Positions 1-9,452 of a stretch of DNA of 9,471 nucleotides are shown here, piece by piece. The stretch is from Candidatus Desantisbacteria bacterium CG1_02_38_46 (lineage in GTDB: Bacteria; Desantisbacteria; UBA1551; UBA1559), in contig MNUO01000037.1 of the NCBI GenBank assembly GCA_001871015.1, positions 1-9,471 of the forward strand, written 5' to 3'. The first letter of the stretch is position 1, and each line of letters starts with the position of its first letter. The translations under genes were made by a program, and so were the position numbers. The notes under the pieces are model-generated. The model had not been told where the DNA came from. It ran no database searches and saw only the letters and a program-made list of their open reading frames with translations.

Positions 1-1853
1 TTGAGCCGGGAGATAATCCATTTATCTGCAAGTGTTGGTTGACGGGTACCCACCGGGGTACCCACGATAGTGGGTCGGGTGGCAAGATTCATTATAATAA
101 ATCTGCTTGCGTTCCAGATTTTGTTCATAAAATTCCGATATCCCTGAATGCGTTCTTCAGAAAGATAAATATCCCTTCCTTTAACTGCTAACGCTGCAAG
201 CGTAAAACGCAGAGCATCAGTGCCGTAATTGTCAATGACTGCAAGGGGGTCGATAACATTTCCTTTTGACTTACTCATCTTCTGCCCTTCAATATCACGG
301 ATGAGCGCATGAATATAAACAGTGCTAAACGGCGCATCCCCCATAAAATGCAAACCCATTATTATCATCCTCGCAACCCAGAAGAAAATAATATCAAATC
401 CAGTAGAAAGCACACTCGTTGGATAAAATACCTGCAAATCTTCTGTTTTATCAGGCCATCCCAGCGTTGAAAATGGCCAGAGTGCTGAACTGAACCAGGT
501 ATCTAACACATCTTCGTCCTGAGTTAACTTATCGCCTCCACACTTTGGACATTTATCGGGTTTTATCCTGGAAGCAATCGGTGCACAGTTTTCGTTCTCG
601 CAATACCAGACTGGGATTCTATGCCCCCACCAGATTTGCCTTGAAATGCACCAATCCCTGATGTTTTCCATCCATTGAAAATAAGTCTTTTCCCAGTTCT
701 TTGGAACGAATTTGACCTTCCCATCCTTAACAGCTTTTAAGGCAGGTTTTGCAAGTTCTTTCATTCTCACAAACCACTGACGGGAAAGGTATGGTTCTAC
801 ATAGGTATGGCAGCGATAACAGGAACCAATAGAATATTTGTAACCTTCAATTTTCTCTATGTATCCTTCTCTTTTCAAATCATCCACTAAAACTTTGCGG
901 CACTCAAAACGGTCTAAACCCTTATATTTACGAGCCTGCTCATTCATTTTCCCATCCGGACCTATAACCTTTATTGCCTCAAGATTGTGTCGATTTCCAA
1001 TCTCAAAATCAGCAGGGTCATGGGCAGGAGTAATTTTAAGACAGCCGGTTCCAAATTTGATATCCACATAATCATCTGCAATAATCGGAATTTCCCTGTC
1101 TCCACAGGGAGCAGGTAATCGAACTTTCTTCCCAATGAGATTTTTGTAGCGCTTGTCCTGCGGATTCACAGCAATTGCAAGGTCTGCGAAAATAGTTTCC
1201 GGGCGGGTTGTGGCAACTACAATATAATCGCCATTCATAAAAGGATATTTCACATAATACAAATGGCCCTTTACATCTTTGTGTTCGGCTTCAAGGTCAG
1301 AAAGAGCGGTCTGGCAGCGTGGACACCAGTTTATGATATAATTGCCCCGATAGATAAAACCTTCATTGTACAGAGATATAAACACTTCCTGAACTGCTTT
1401 TGAAAGTCCTTCGTCCATTGTGAATCGTGTCCGGCTCCAATCACAGGAACAGCCAAGTTTTTTTAATTGATTTATAATTGTGCCGCCGGTTTCTTCTTTC
1501 CACTTCCAGACTCTCTCAACAAATTTAACCCTGCCTAATTCTTGTCGGGTTAATCCTTCCTTCGCCAATTCTTTTTCAACTACATTCTGCGTGGCGATGC
1601 CGGCATGGTCAGTCCCTGGTAACCAGAGGACATTGTATTCCTGCATCCTATTCCATCGGGTGAGAATATCCTGGAGGGTATTGTTCAGGGCATGTCCCAT
1701 ATGAAGTGAACCTGTAACATTTGGCGGCGGAATCACTATGCAAAACGGTTCCTTTTTGCTTTTAACATCTGCCCGGAAGTAATTCTTATCTATCCAATAA
1801 TTGTACCATTTATCTTCAACTTCTTCTGGATTATATTTTGTCGGTATTTCCAT
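1..1853 (-). CDS. valS: Valyl-tRNA synthetase, 3' end cut by window edge
   Basis: Class I aminoacyl-tRNA synthetase that charges tRNA-Val in the cytoplasm. The frame is open from ATG at 1853 to the window start, giving 617 residues of a family usually near 880, so the end of the anticodon-binding region and the C-terminal coiled coil lie outside. Visible landmarks are: PPPNVTGSLHMGH with the HIGH-type motif HMGH at residues 51-54; the editing-domain motif TTRPET near 215-220; the editing-site stretch ITPAHDPADFEIGN near 272-285; zinc-type Cys pairs (NWCPRC, CYRC, YCENENC, CPKCGG); DWCISRQIWWGHRIPVW; and KMSKS at 525-529 followed by KGNV. GGAGGG sits 3 nt before the ATG. A GC-rich segment near residues 590-607 (ATRPTIVGTPVGTRQPT) resembles the repeat family found elsewhere here. 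It is unrelated in function to the hydrogenase operon upstream and has its own promoter. Confidence 0.97.
   Translation of the reverse strand, partial: MEIPTKYNPEEVEDKWYNYWIDKNYFRADVKSKKEPFCIVIPPPNVTGSLHMGHALNNTLQDILTRWNRMQEYNVLWLPGTDHAGIATQNVVEKELAKEGLTRQELGRVKFVERVWKWKEETGGTIINQLKKLGCSCDWSRTRFTMDEGLSKAVQEVFISLYNEGFIYRGNYIINWCPRCQTALSDLEAEHKDVKGHLYYVKYPFMNGDYIVVATTRPETIFADLAIAVNPQDKRYKNLIGKKVRLPAPCGDREIPIIADDYVDIKFGTGCLKITPAHDPADFEIGNRHNLEAIKVIGPDGKMNEQARKYKGLDRFECRKVLVDDLKREGYIEKIEGYKYSIGSCYRCHTYVEPYLSRQWFVRMKELAKPALKAVKDGKVKFVPKNWEKTYFQWMENIRDWCISRQIWWGHRIPVWYCENENCAPIASRIKPDKCPKCGGDKLTQDEDVLDTWFSSALWPFSTLGWPDKTEDLQVFYPTSVLSTGFDIIFFWVARMIIMGLHFMGDAPFSTVYIHALIRDIEGQKMSKSKGNVIDPLAVIDNYGTDALRFTLAALAVKGRDIYLSEERIQGYRNFMNKIWNASRFIIMNLATRPTIVGTPVGTRQPTLADKWIISRL
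33..84 (-). repeat. Possible REP-derived GC-rich hairpin in frame within valS
   Basis: The coding strand carries CGACCCACTATCGTGGGT followed by ACCCCGG. It contains a perfect 6-bp stem (ACCCAC / GTGGGT, loop TATC) and then a GGTGGGTACC duplication. It aligns by eye with the GC-rich repeats at 2316-2358 and 4334-4373 (CGACCCGCC..GGCGGGTGCCCCGG). It encodes about 15 residues in the variable stretch between the MNKIWNASRF motif and ADKWIISRL. It is much more GC-rich than the surrounding valS sequence. Homology to the other repeats is an inference from a gapped eye alignment. Confidence 0.45.
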
Positions 1854-1950: not shown

Positions 1951-2508
1951 CTATACAAGAAATGCCTTAACCAATTTTTTGATGGAAGATTTTAATTCGG
2001 GAGTTAGAAATGCACCTAATTCAATAGTCTGGGGCTGAATTGCAAGAAGAAAAATGTCTGCATCTGTCTGTTGTTTGAGGCAATCCATAAACACACGTGG
2101 CGAGAGGGTGTGGGTAGTGAAGCCAATTTTACTTATATCTTCTGTTTCAAAAATCCTGACTTCACCCGGTTTTCCTCCAAAATCAGCAGCATCTACGACC
2201 ATAATCGTATCTGGCTTTGCTTTGATGATAGGACTGAGATAATTCTCAGGGACTTCGCCAGCATCTATTAGCAAAAAGGGGACTGTCCTCTTTTTGGGGG
2301 ACTGTCCTCTTTTCTGCAGAGCCGGGGCACCCGCCGCTGAGGTGGGTCGTGCCACTACATTTTTCAATTGCTGGATAAAAAAAAGGCCGGCACCATCATC
2401 GCCTTTCAATGGATTACCGACCCCTACGATTACAACTTTACCCTTTAATCGCTTTTTTAATTTTAGAAAAAGTAGCCTGTCCCCTTTTTCAACTATTTTT
2501 CTCCCCAT
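1951..2508 (-). CDS. hycI: HycI-type [NiFe]-hydrogenase maturation protease with repeat-encoded insertion
   Basis: Endopeptidase of the HycI/HybD family. It removes the C-terminal peptide of the hydrogenase large subunit once nickel is in the active site. The 185 residues include VGVGNPLKGDDGAG (27-41), VVDAADF (104-110) and TTHTLSP (131-137). D38, D106 and H133 match the nickel-sensing residues D16, D62 and H90 of E. coli HycI; IDAGEVPEN and LLAIQPQ also match HycI. Two segments are unusual. Residues 51-78 (VARPTSAAGAPAL... then two GQSP/RTVP-like units) are encoded by inverted repeats and have no counterpart in the family. Residues 7-14 (EKGDRLLF) come from another repeat. The ATG at 2508 overlaps the preceding gene's stop by 16 nt; I see no in-frame ATG, GTG or TTG between it and the VVIVGVGN motif. 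It is the last gene of the operon and implies that a [NiFe] large subunit exists in this organism. Confidence 0.9.
   Translation of the reverse strand: MGRKIVEKGDRLLFLKLKKRLKGKVVIVGVGNPLKGDDGAGLFFIQQLKNVVARPTSAAGAPALQKRGQSPKKRTVPFLLIDAGEVPENYLSPIIKAKPDTIMVVDAADFGGKPGEVRIFETEDISKIGFTTHTLSPRVFMDCLKQQTDADIFLLAIQPQTIELGAFLTPELKSSIKKLVKAFLV
2273..2309. repeat. Tandem GGGGACTGTCC repeat inside hycI
   Basis: Two copies of GGGGACTGTCCTC lie 19 nt apart (2278-2290 and 2297-2309), each next to a run of A or T. GGGACTGTCCC-like dyads recur at 7228-7239, and the related GGGGACAGG form at 2467-2491 and 3769-3790. Within hycI the pair is translated and forms the second half of the extra segment (residues 67-78). 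Confidence 0.75.
2316..2358. repeat. GC-rich GTAG-footed REP-like element inside hycI
   Basis: On the minus strand the element starts GTAGTGGCACGACCC and reads through a GC-rich hairpin to CCCCGGCTCTGC. Apart from one substitution and a 3-nt insertion in the loop (GCTGA against GA), it matches the copy at 4334-4373, which lies between genes. The 3-nt length change preserves the reading frame. It encodes about residues 51-65 of the protease. Confidence 0.8.
2467..2491. repeat. GGGGACAGGCTAC hairpin repeat at the 5' end of hycI
   Basis: On the minus strand GAAAAAGGGGACAGGCTA is followed by CTTTTT, so AAAAAG and CTTTTT can form a 6-bp stem. A near-identical copy, with a G for A change, lies at 3769-3792 just after the mrpE stop codon. 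Here it is translated as residues 7-14 of the maturation protease. Confidence 0.75.
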
Positions 2509-3696: not shown

Positions 3697-3740
3697 GGGG
3701 GTCAGGTCTTACACCCCAAAAATGTTAACCATTTTTGGGG
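3697..3740. repeat. GGGGTCAGGTC element with perfect 11-bp hairpin
   Basis: GGGGTCAGGTCTTACACCCC (3698-3717) is followed directly by an inverted repeat whose arms are CCCCAAAAATG (3714-3724) and CATTTTTGGGG (3730-3740), with a 5-nt loop TTAAC. The arms match at all 11 positions. Neither strand has a T-run just after the hairpin, so it does not look like an intrinsic terminator. It fills the mrpE-mrpF gap together with the next repeat. Confidence 0.75.
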
Positions 3741-3768
3741 GGACTCCATTGAATTGTGAATTAGTGTT

Positions 3769-3792
3769 AAAAAGCAGCCTGTCCCCTTTTTC
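3769..3792. repeat. GGGGACAGGCTGC repeat just after the mrpE stop
   Basis: On the minus strand the mrpE TGA is followed at once by GAAAAAGGGGACAGGCTG and CTTTTT. It is the second copy of the element at 2467-2491, differing by one base. AAAAAG and CTTTTT can pair. Whether it affects transcript processing or termination cannot be told from the sequence. Confidence 0.75.
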
Positions 3793-4305: not shown

Positions 4306-4373
4306 GTAGTGGTCAAGTTTACTTGACTAAATCGCAGAGCCGGGGCACCCGCCGAGGCGGGTCGTGCCACTAC
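4306..4373. repeat. BIME-like pair of GTAG-footed inverted repeats (mrpD-mrpE gap)
   Basis: The left unit reads GTAGTGG and then the hairpin GTCAAGTTTACTTGAC (4312-4327). After the linker TAAATC comes the GC-rich unit in the opposite orientation (4334-4373), ending GCCACTAC. On the minus strand the latter is GTAG, then GGCACGACCCGCC / GGCGGGTGCC. The two feet face outwards, as in bacterial interspersed mosaic elements. The TAG in the right-hand foot is the mrpD stop codon. Confidence 0.85.
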
Positions 4374-7239: not shown

Positions 7240-7248
7240 ATTCGGCAT

Positions 7249-7374
7249 GTAGTGGTCGAGTTTACTCGCCTAAATTGCAGACCAAGGTCTGCCACTACTT
7301 GTAGTGGTCGAGTTTACTCGACTAAATTGCAGACCAAGGTCTGCCACTACTTGTAGTGGTCGAGTTTACTCGAC
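7249..7374. repeat. Tandem BIME-like array, 52-bp period, 2.4 copies
   Basis: Units start at 7249, 7301 and 7353. Each full unit is GTAGTGG, a TTTA-loop hairpin, TAAATT, the hairpin GCAGACCAAGGTCTGC (7277-7292, 7329-7344), CACTAC and TT. The TTTA hairpins lie at 7255-7270, 7307-7322 and 7359-7374. The last two are perfect GTCGAGTTTACTCGAC; the first ends CTCGCC and has one mismatch. The array fills most of the 185-nt gap after the 662-residue antiporter gene; the third unit is only half present. Confidence 0.9.
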
Positions 7375-7400
7375 TTATTTCTCTGCCGATACATTGCAAT

Positions 7401-9389
7401 TTATCGCACAAGAACATACAATATAATTCCAAAACCAATCAAACACCAGGCAAGATAAGTTGGCAGTGCTCCGATATGTCCTCTGCGCAGAATCCAGGAG
7501 AATAACAATACCAACCTTGCAACTCCGAGCACAAGCCAGTCAACAAATCTATCTATGCAATAAAACAGAATATAGGCGACACCTTTAAGAAATCCCATTC
7601 CCCATTTATAAAAATCTAAAAACTTCTTTTCAGCTGCTTTATAAATACCTGATAATCCACCAATTTCCTTTACAGTATTATAAAATTGAGTTCCAGGAAA
7701 ACGATGAACCTCAGTAGCCACTTCTCCACCAATGTAAATTGAATCAACTCTGGGCTTTGTCGCCTTTCCTATTATATAAATAAGGTAGCCAATAATCAAC
7801 CCAATAACTATTAAACCAGTTGCTAAAGTTGGACTCCAAAGCCCTGAAAGACTTAAAGCTCTGGGAATGCGAGCAAAATCAAGTCCAATTGCAGGACCAA
7901 TGAATTTTCCGAGTGGAATCTGGGCAAATACACCAAAAATTACACAAAGTGCTGCGAGCACTGCCATTGGTACCCACATTGTCCAGTTAACTTCTTTAAT
8001 AGGAGTGGAGCTTTCCCTACCCGCCGAAGCAGTGGTGGTGGGAGACTCGTTAACAGGTTGACCAAAAAATGTGGAATGAATCAGTTTCATAAATGAGGCA
8101 AGCGTCAGCGCAGAACCAAACATTGCAGCCACTAAAAATATCCAGCAAAAGAAACTTGTCAACTGATTCACTTGTGAACTTGCTGACTGTATTACTCCTT
8201 GGTACACCATCCATTTAGAAATAAATCCATTAAATGGGGGAACTCCAGAAATTGAAAACGCTGCAATCAGTGTAGCGACAAAAGTAATTGGCATTACTCT
8301 GGAAAGCCCTCCCAATTTCTCAAGGTCGGTTGTACCTGCTTGATGTTCTACTGCTCCACCACCTAAAAACAAGCAGGATTTATATATTGCGTGATTCAAC
8401 ATATGGAATAATCCACCGGCAATACCTATTGGATTTCCAGTTCCAATGCCCAGCACCATATATCCTACCTGGCTAACTGCATGATATGAAAGTAATTTCT
8501 TCAAATCATGCTGAATTAAAGCCATCATAACAGCAGCAATAATTGTAAAAGCACCGATGAACATCAATATCATCCCAAGCCATGATGGCATTATAAACAA
8601 ATCTGAAGTAATGCGAATAAGGAGATAAATACCGAGGAGTTTATCAAGAGATGCTGGTAAAAATGCCATCACAGGAACAGGCGCTTCAGTCGCAGCATCA
8701 GGAATCCATGTATGGAAAGGCATTGAACCTGCCTTAGCAAGTGCACCGCAAGCCATACAAATAAATGCGAGTGCACTTATCTTAAAACTCACACTTGTAA
8801 ACAAAGTTGCTTTTATAACATCAATACTGAATGTTCTCGTCATATACCATACCAAAAGAATTCCTAACAAGAGTAGAAAATCGGCAACTCCAACAATTAT
8901 AAAGGACTTTCTTGCACTGCAGGAGGCAGCTTTTCCACCTCCTATACTTATCATTCCATAAAGGCAAATTAAAACTAAATCCCAGAATATCAGCAGGGTT
9001 AAAAGGTTGTTCGAAAGCACTGCACCATTTGCCACACCAATATTAATAAGAAGATAGGCATAATATTCGTTCAGTCTGTTCTTTCCGGACATAAATTTCA
9101 GGGAATAAAGAGTGATCAGAAACCCGAAAAAGGTTATAAACATAAGTATAAAAGAATTTAAGTAGTCGACCCTGAGGTCAAGATTAATTCCTAATATCTG
9201 TGTAAGTAAACCTAATTCCCTATAAAAAACTGCTCCTTTTTCTTTAAAAATGGTTATACCGATAACCAAAGCAACAAAACTTACAATCAGAGCAATTGCC
9301 TCTTTGAGAATTTTTACTCTATTTGGAATTAACAGACAGATTAGTCCGCCCAAAACTGGCAAGAAAATTGAATATACAAGAATAATCAT
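7401..9389 (-). CDS. Large antiporter-like membrane subunit (NuoL/M, HyfB/HycC, MrpA/D superfamily) with extended C-terminus
   Basis: A 662-residue polytopic subunit of the proton-translocating superfamily and the second large antiporter of the operon. K219 (AKAGSMPFHTWIPDA), K250 (DKLLGIYLL), H329 and K337 (FHMLNHAIYKS), and K392 (GVPPFNGFISK) occupy ion-path positions. At the TM5 position, where most relatives have Glu, there is Asp137 (FWDLVLICLYG). After about residue 545 it has a C-terminal extension, YIGGEVATEVHRFPGTQFYNTV, an amphipathic stretch and two more helices, longer than MrpD. It lacks the MbhD/E modules of full MrpA; these are in the next gene. Residues 448-463 form a low-complexity loop insert. 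The frame extends to a GTG at 9425, but those 12 codons are repeat DNA; AGGA 6 nt before the ATG at 9389 supports the shorter start. Confidence 0.9.
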   Translation of the reverse strand: MIILVYSIFLPVLGGLICLLIPNRVKILKEAIALIVSFVALVIGITIFKEKGAVFYRELGLLTQILGINLDLRVDYLNSFILMFITFFGFLITLYSLKFMSGKNRLNEYYAYLLINIGVANGAVLSNNLLTLLIFWDLVLICLYGMISIGGGKAASCSARKSFIIVGVADFLLLLGILLVWYMTRTFSIDVIKATLFTSVSFKISALAFICMACGALAKAGSMPFHTWIPDAATEAPVPVMAFLPASLDKLLGIYLLIRITSDLFIMPSWLGMILMFIGAFTIIAAVMMALIQHDLKKLLSYHAVSQVGYMVLGIGTGNPIGIAGGLFHMLNHAIYKSCLFLGGGAVEHQAGTTDLEKLGGLSRVMPITFVATLIAAFSISGVPPFNGFISKWMVYQGVIQSASSQVNQLTSFFCWIFLVAAMFGSALTLASFMKLIHSTFFGQPVNESPTTTASAGRESSTPIKEVNWTMWVPMAVLAALCVIFGVFAQIPLGKFIGPAIGLDFARIPRALSLSGLWSPTLATGLIVIGLIIGYLIYIIGKATKPRVDSIYIGGEVATEVHRFPGTQFYNTVKEIGGLSGIYKAAEKKFLDFYKWGMGFLKGVAYILFYCIDRFVDWLVLGVARLVLLFSWILRRGHIGALPTYLAWCLIGFGIILYVLVR
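8001..8048 (-). repeat. Possible repeat-derived insert in the antiporter loop
   Basis: This GC-rich stretch encodes NESPTTTASAGRESSTP, a Ser/Thr-rich loop between FFGQP and the helix beginning VNWTMWVPM. Relatives usually have a short charged loop here. The coding strand contains GCTTCGGCGGGTAGGG, which resembles the GCCTCGGCGGGTGCCC core of the GC-rich repeats at 2316-2358 and 4334-4373. The feet (GTAG) are not present, so the relation is tentative. Confidence 0.3.
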
Positions 9390-9395
9390 ATTACA

Positions 9396-9399
9396 TCCT
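9396..9399 (-). promoter_or_regulatory. RBS deciding the start of the 662-residue antiporter gene
   Basis: AGGA followed by TGTAAT and the ATG at 9389 gives 6-nt spacing. The GTG at 9425 lies within a repeat foot and hairpin (9407-9428) and is an unlikely start. Confidence 0.7.
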
Positions 9400-9406
9400 A
9401 TCTTTT

Positions 9407-9452
9407 GCAGAGTAAACTCTGCCACTACTTGTAGTGGGCGAGTTTACTCGCC
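9407..9452. repeat. BIME-like pair of GTAG-footed inverted repeats upstream of the antiporter gene
   Basis: GCAGAGTAAACTCTGC (9407-9422) is followed by CACTAC, TT, then GTAGTGG leading into GGCGAGTTTACTCGCC (9437-9452). Both hairpins are perfect 6-bp stems around TTTA/TAAA, with the two feet meeting in the middle. It implies that another gene lies a short way upstream. No promoter is convincing in the last 19 bases (9453-9471), so the operon probably begins outside the window. Confidence 0.85.

Follow-up and report, generated by a model that had tools for sequence, protein, structure and literature searches.

Introduction

How DNA of the kind that is scattered between genes as short repeats can come to lie, in frame, within the coding sequence of a hydrogenase maturation protease, and what has become of that protein, is the question raised by a 9,471-nt stretch of contig MNUO01000037.1 (hereafter, the window) from Candidatus Desantisbacteria bacterium CG1_02_38_46. 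A first-pass annotation had proposed that residues 51–78 of a HycI-like protein encoded there are derived from repeat DNA. Intragenic GTAG REPs were already described in 2013, as dimers and groups coding for 20–30 residues, and in recB of two Xanthomonas they occur at about the same site, according to the available text of PMC3733652. In this work, we searched 1.17 Mb of the genome that holds the window (88% complete) together with 0.47 Mb of Candidatus Desantisbacteria CG1_02_49_89 (G001), which represents a different genus and is the sole relative from the phylum compared; all counts given below refer to these samples. The segment in hycI is very probably composed of stacked miniature mobile elements of two classes, which entered in frame, survive in a flexible loop and were most likely spread by transposases of the RAYT and TIRYT kinds. 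The features of the window are collected in Table 1.

Table 1. Position, strand and supporting evidence of the features of the window.
Feature	Position	Strand	Evidence
In-frame repeat in valS, a decayed palindrome (TRPTIVGTPVGTRQP)	43..87	minus	Alignment with relative
HycI-like hydrogenase maturation protease, 185 aa	1951..2508	minus	NCBIfam TIGR00072 and Pfam PF01750 above cutoff
TIR-type repeat: tandem pair of GGGGACAG/GGGGACTGTCC units at a 19-nt step, encoding KRGQSPKKRTVPF	2273..2314	minus	Identical 17-nt copies
GTAG-footed REP-type unit (GTAGTGGCACGACCC...CTCTGC), encoding VVARPTSAAGAPALQ	2316..2358	minus	21-mer/25-mer shared with 4334–4373
Third GGGGACAG-family unit, in frame near HycI start, residues EKGDRLLF	2467..2490	minus	96% identical to 3769–3792
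Predicted peptide stretches of the repeat-encoded HycI segment: LKNVVARPTSAAGAPALQK, SPKKRTVPFLLIDAG			
GGGGACAG family, intergenic copy	3769..3792	minus	Repeat comparison
GTAG unit, intergenic copy	4334..4373	minus	Shared 21-mer/25-mer; genome search
BIME-like tandem GTAGTGG array, intergenic, 52-nt period	7248..7377	+	Tandem Repeats Finder: 2.5 copies, 98% match
NuoL/MrpD-like antiporter subunit: in-frame stretch of decayed palindrome; relative lacks nine residues	8017..8049	minus	Alignment
Inverted GTAGTGG pair overlapping start of ORF 7401–9425, near contig end	9403..9455	.	Inverted and direct repeats

The Maturation Protease and Its Repeats

The HycI reading frame scores 99.7 bits against TIGR00072 (cutoff 47.5) and 64 against Pfam HycI (cutoff 23). 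It is the final gene in a membrane-bound hydrogenase/Mrp-type operon, in which it is preceded by genes for a ferredoxin-like subunit and for membrane subunits of the Mrp/Mbh type. Both the fold and the metal ligands of a HycI/HybD maturation protease are present, as the best Foldseek matches to the AlphaFold model are the solved HycI structures 5zby (E = 1.5e-14), 2e85 and 2i8l, and an alignment of homologues shows little or no variation at D37/D38, D106 and H133. D38, D106 and H133, which serve as catalytic and metal positions in E. coli HycI, remain in frame on either side of the insert, just as had been read from the sequence, and the enzyme is probably still active despite its repeats. A decaying pseudogene might be suspected from three separate repeat insertions, one of them near the start, and yet it is very improbable in view of the open frame, the three intact residues, 52% identity to the HycI of the relative and the conserved operon position.

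The repeat DNA comprises 86 bp at 2273–2358 and, as first proposed, is in frame throughout. On the coding strand, from 2358 to 2273, a 43-nt GTAG-footed unit is followed by AG and by two head-to-tail GAGGACAGTCCCC units with A/T borders. Between AAT and TTG, the minus-strand codons read GTA GTG GCA ... CTG CAG AAA AGA GGA CAG TCC CCC AAA AAG AGG ACA GTC CCC TTT, which are translated, between N and L, as VVARPTSAAGAPALQKRGQSPKKRTVPF. The near identity claimed between the GTAG unit and the intergenic copy at 4334–4373 was confirmed, as the two share one 21-mer without mismatch and one 25-mer at 92% identity, the unit measuring 43 nt in hycI and 40 nt between genes. A search of the whole genome with the HycI unit recovered this copy (E = 3.3e-10) and three more diverged copies on other contigs; the subtype is rare, with six related units. 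Folded as single-stranded DNA, the HycI copy is no better than its shuffles (z −0.76), and it is decayed, having kept the foot and lost most of the palindrome.

The two tandem units that had been noticed behind the GTAG unit contain identical 17-nt GGGGACTGTCCTCTTTT copies, at 2278 and 2297. This GGGGAC unit does fold (z −2.7), its hairpin beating 197 of 200 shuffles, with 3 of 200 as good, and one side of the GGGGACAG-type copies in hycI reads GAGGACAG. About 30 genuine dispersed relatives of the unit stand among 50 loose matches. Repeat comparison likewise upholds the view that two families unrelated in sequence are stacked in this one gene. A 22-mer of the third unit, at 2467–2490, recurs at many intergenic places and, since that unit lies in frame, the N-terminal extension of HycI is also repeat-derived. 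An intergenic palindrome at 3697–3745, around GGGGTCAGGTCTTACACCCC, resembles the dispersed TCAAGACCTGACACC family.

A Predicted Flexible Loop and a Partly Lost or Replaced Linker

In the AlphaFold model of HycI, the core has pLDDT values above 90 and residues 51–77 form a disordered loop with values of about 48–67. The repeat-encoded segment is therefore predicted, with the low confidence of that stretch, to sit in a flexible surface loop of a well-folded core, which agrees with the tolerant position first suggested for it. An intein was considered and rejected, as the insert has about 28 residues versus 100 or more for inteins and no splicing motifs are visible in the sequence.

The linker from GDDxxG to DAGEVPE has 40 residues in this HycI versus 16–21 in nine homologues, all from outside the phylum. 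Homologues had been expected to lack about 28 residues here; the shorter linker was found, but not that size, the net gain being 19–24 residues relative to these nine. The result that the first-pass annotation had named as refuting, a repeat-free homologue with a similar segment, was not found, and the nine have linkers about half as long. As the gain is smaller than the 28.7 codons spanned by the repeat DNA, some of the host linker was lost or replaced, and the event was no simple insertion; the exact insertion junctions in hycI are not placeable. The gene for QueC contains an exact 22-nt unit of the GGGGACAG family (L127:11392–11413), and its length is unchanged versus the G001 orthologue. 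The QueC unit parallels HycI, as if it were replacing host DNA instead of being added to it.

Repeats across the Genome

The sequence GTAGTGG occurs 285 times in the 1.17 Mb sample and is followed by a hairpin at 149 of these places; among the other feet tried, GTAACTC has a hairpin at 156 places and the remaining feet at 0–15. The GTAGTGG family thus has a GTAG end followed by a short palindrome. It also has a high copy number and a mostly intergenic location, with 92 of the 149 hairpin copies in intergenic stretches, 19 at the edges of genes and 38 within called genes, as well as inverted or alternating BIME-like pairs, seen in the 52-nt modules at 7248–7377. The in-gene share lies far under the 87% coding share, which fits the purging of most in-gene insertions.

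With a conservative 12-mer mask, high-copy repeats were found away from gene ends inside 33 predicted genes; several of these cases (L139, L116, L068 and L147) are probably due to chance or gene-specific, and were left out of the argument. Many of the repeat-bearing genes code for housekeeping enzymes, and those named above family cutoffs include the genes of QueC, ThrC, Alr, TopA, DprA, IspE, ThiL, TsaB, IspG, UvrA, Asd, an NrdG-type activase and YbeY. The TsaB and ThiL genes have 51-nt alternating GTAG modules inside them, and a stack of two repeat families at one site recurs in no fewer than three further genes (L078, L101 and L114). Where units point in the same direction, the distance between them is divisible by three in 10 of 11 cases within genes versus 10 of 40 elsewhere (Fisher p = 1.2e-4, rising to 1.3e-3 if one short ORF is left out), a result that leans somewhat on the gene caller's demand for open frames. 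IspE is longer by roughly 57 in-frame residues because of an array of about seven GTAGTGG units with a 24-nt period (L070:4876–5044).

The G001 sample displays the same in-frame habit, comprising palindromes plus 7–8-nt tandem repeats. Several of its genes (L185:10555–13044, L169:12856–15276 and L191:3056–5416) have in-frame 7–8-nt arrays (GTGTCAAC, TTGCAAA, ATCCAG), which are not of the palindrome type. With repeats in dozens of genes of both genomes, the HycI insert is no single-gene curiosity.

Candidate Transposases and a Probable Route into hycI

By sequence, the hycI repeats can be assigned to two classes in the available text of PMC3733652, RAYT-mobilised GTAG REPs and the GGGGWSAS-type terminal repeats of TIRYT. 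The termini of TIRYT have GGGGWSAS in common according to that text, and GGGGACAG fits this motif. Transposases bordered by repeats of these classes are present in both genomes. L154 (1462–2445) in the genome of the window is an intact TIRYT-like Y1 transposase with a DnaA-like C-terminal tail, which scores 79.9 bits against REP_Tyr_transpos (cutoff 80) and has AGGGTCAGACCTCAACATCT termini with 20-bp terminal inverted repeats. L153, from the same genome, is a broken TIRYT-like Y1 transposase flanked by AAAAAGGGGACGCTTCT terminal repeats, of which about 15 dispersed copies were found in the sample, one of them within a gene at L141. The G001 transposases L199 and L201 are flanked by AGGGACAG (GGGACAG) repeats, and its RAYT-like transposases L202 and L203 (contig C23) lie within arrays of GTAACTC REPs, a family that is one of the two most abundant detected in the genome of the window too. 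No transposase flanked by the exact GGGGACAGTCCCC family was found in the genome of the window, which is 88% complete, only close variants at L153 there and at L199 and L201 in G001, and no Y1 transposase flanked by GTAGTGG units was found in the genome of the window or among ten in G001. The transposase fragment L155 was rejected as the GTAGTGG partner; it looks like a plain IS200, and a GTAGTGG unit is about 350 bp off. REPtrons are absent from some species with GTAG REPs, according to the available text of PMC3733652, and TnpA-REP requires GTAG both to recognise single-stranded REP and to cleave it (PMC8266576).

A GTAG-tagged REP and two GGGGACAG-type terminal repeats would have entered hycI in frame, the units most likely being spread by Y1 (HUH) single-strand transposases related to IS200/IS605 (RAYT, TIRYT). 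Insertions would be purged wherever they break the frame or fall in folded parts, and as a result of such purging, the in-gene units that remain should be stop-free, in frame and in loops. The hycI repeats would survive because they are located in a flexible surface loop, and we infer that they are near-neutral for HycI.

The Same Loop in a Second Genus

The repeat segment is often absent from the G001 orthologues, as in Alr, EtfA and the MrpD-like subunit. The HycI loop of G001 (L023) offers no empty site. It is occupied by 56 residues, for which other palindromic pieces code, at least three in number, including GTAGCTGCAGGGCTTGCCCTGCA and GTAGTGGCAGAGCTTGCTCTGCA, which recur across G001, and it is also predicted to be disordered. 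The loop is filled differently in the two genera, possibly above one common old GTAG unit. The sequence GTA GTG GCA ... CTC TGC AGA AA occurs in both HycI genes with identical orientation and frame (VVA...ALQK), and the final linker residues align between them. The GTAG unit may thus have been in the loop since the common ancestor of both genera, with only the later units, GGGGACAG here and two other palindromes there, being separate. We regard this as a tentative reading and somewhat improbable, as the interior of the unit is completely different in the two genera. Moreover, neither genome is short of GTAG units, which are abundant, and among open frames the same frame and direction would be obtained by chance about one time in four.

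The extended loop at the same place in the relative could also point to adoption of the segment for a function, for instance a contact to the large subunit of the hydrogenase, in place of neutrality; this is quite unlikely, however, given that the two HycI loops share little sequence, that both are predicted to be disordered and that the same repeats are found in dozens of unrelated proteins. An assembly or binning artefact, in which repeats joined two different genes or reads were misjoined, is hardly credible even for a fragmented draft of 133 contigs and a contig that ends near a repeat, as the match to the family runs on in one frame through both halves of HycI, gene order around hycI agrees with the relative and the same pattern is seen in dozens of genes as well as in a second, independent assembly. 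In-frame entry of two classes of mobile repeats, followed by survival in a flexible loop, remains the preferred reading for hycI.

ValS carries different repeat-like inserts in the two genera within the same loop, ahead of TLADKW/TVADRW (43–87 in the window; L175 in G001), and the ValS of the relative has a second insert elsewhere. A broader proposal would be that several families of mini-elements from single-strand transposases have, time and again, entered the same loops in different genera of Desantisbacteria and replaced part of them, that much of the variation in loop length in essential proteins comes from mobile repeats, and that a stacked loop is a preferred landing site; we consider this doubtful. 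The occurrence of different repeats in the same loops of two genera allows a direct test of whether these loops act as landing sites or hold only what has survived selection.

These observations extend intragenic REPs to an uncultured phylum, and yield named essential enzymes in which DNA of a parasite type has turned into protein; for comparison, there are at least six repeat families and two genera. They also serve as a warning that differences in loop length in such genomes may be due to repeat DNA and not to adaptation.

Comparison with Known Systems

The first-pass annotation had likened the hycI segment to the palindromic elements of Rickettsia (RPE). The likeness stands in that in-frame palindromic repeats occur across many housekeeping proteins, but the closest kin are instead the GTAG REPs and TIRYT-type repeats of PMC3733652, in its available text. 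In that text, RPE-4 and RPE-6 form a CGTC super-family not associated with transposases, whereas the feet here are GTAG, GTAA and GGGGAC; RPE-1 is longer than the repeats found here. The REP/RAYT system of E. coli TnpA-REP shares the GTAG foot and the BIME-like alternating arrays (PMC2817692, PMC8266576). Classical REPs are described there as intergenic, however, while the repeats of this genome lie in genes as well, and the RAYT partner of GTAGTGG was not found in the two samples.

The GGGGACAG-type units resemble the TIR repeats of TIRYT, both in the GGGGWSAS motif and in the similar repeats that border the Y1 transposases L153, L199 and L201; the hycI copies lie within a gene, and such copies are not described in the available text of PMC3733652. 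With the intragenic GTAG REPs of the same text, the repeats share the GTAG foot, short palindromes, a high intergenic copy number and an occurrence in genes as singles, dimers and groups, and in both cases uvrA and tRNA synthetases are among the genes concerned. Unlike in those published REPs, little of the palindrome is left in the HycI GTAG copy. The phylum, the sequences of the repeat families, the stacking of a REP and a second, TIR-type class in one gene and a net gain below the length of the repeats are new here. The hycI case is a well-supported instance of a known but little-studied habit, notable for its stacking and for the repeated use of the same loops.
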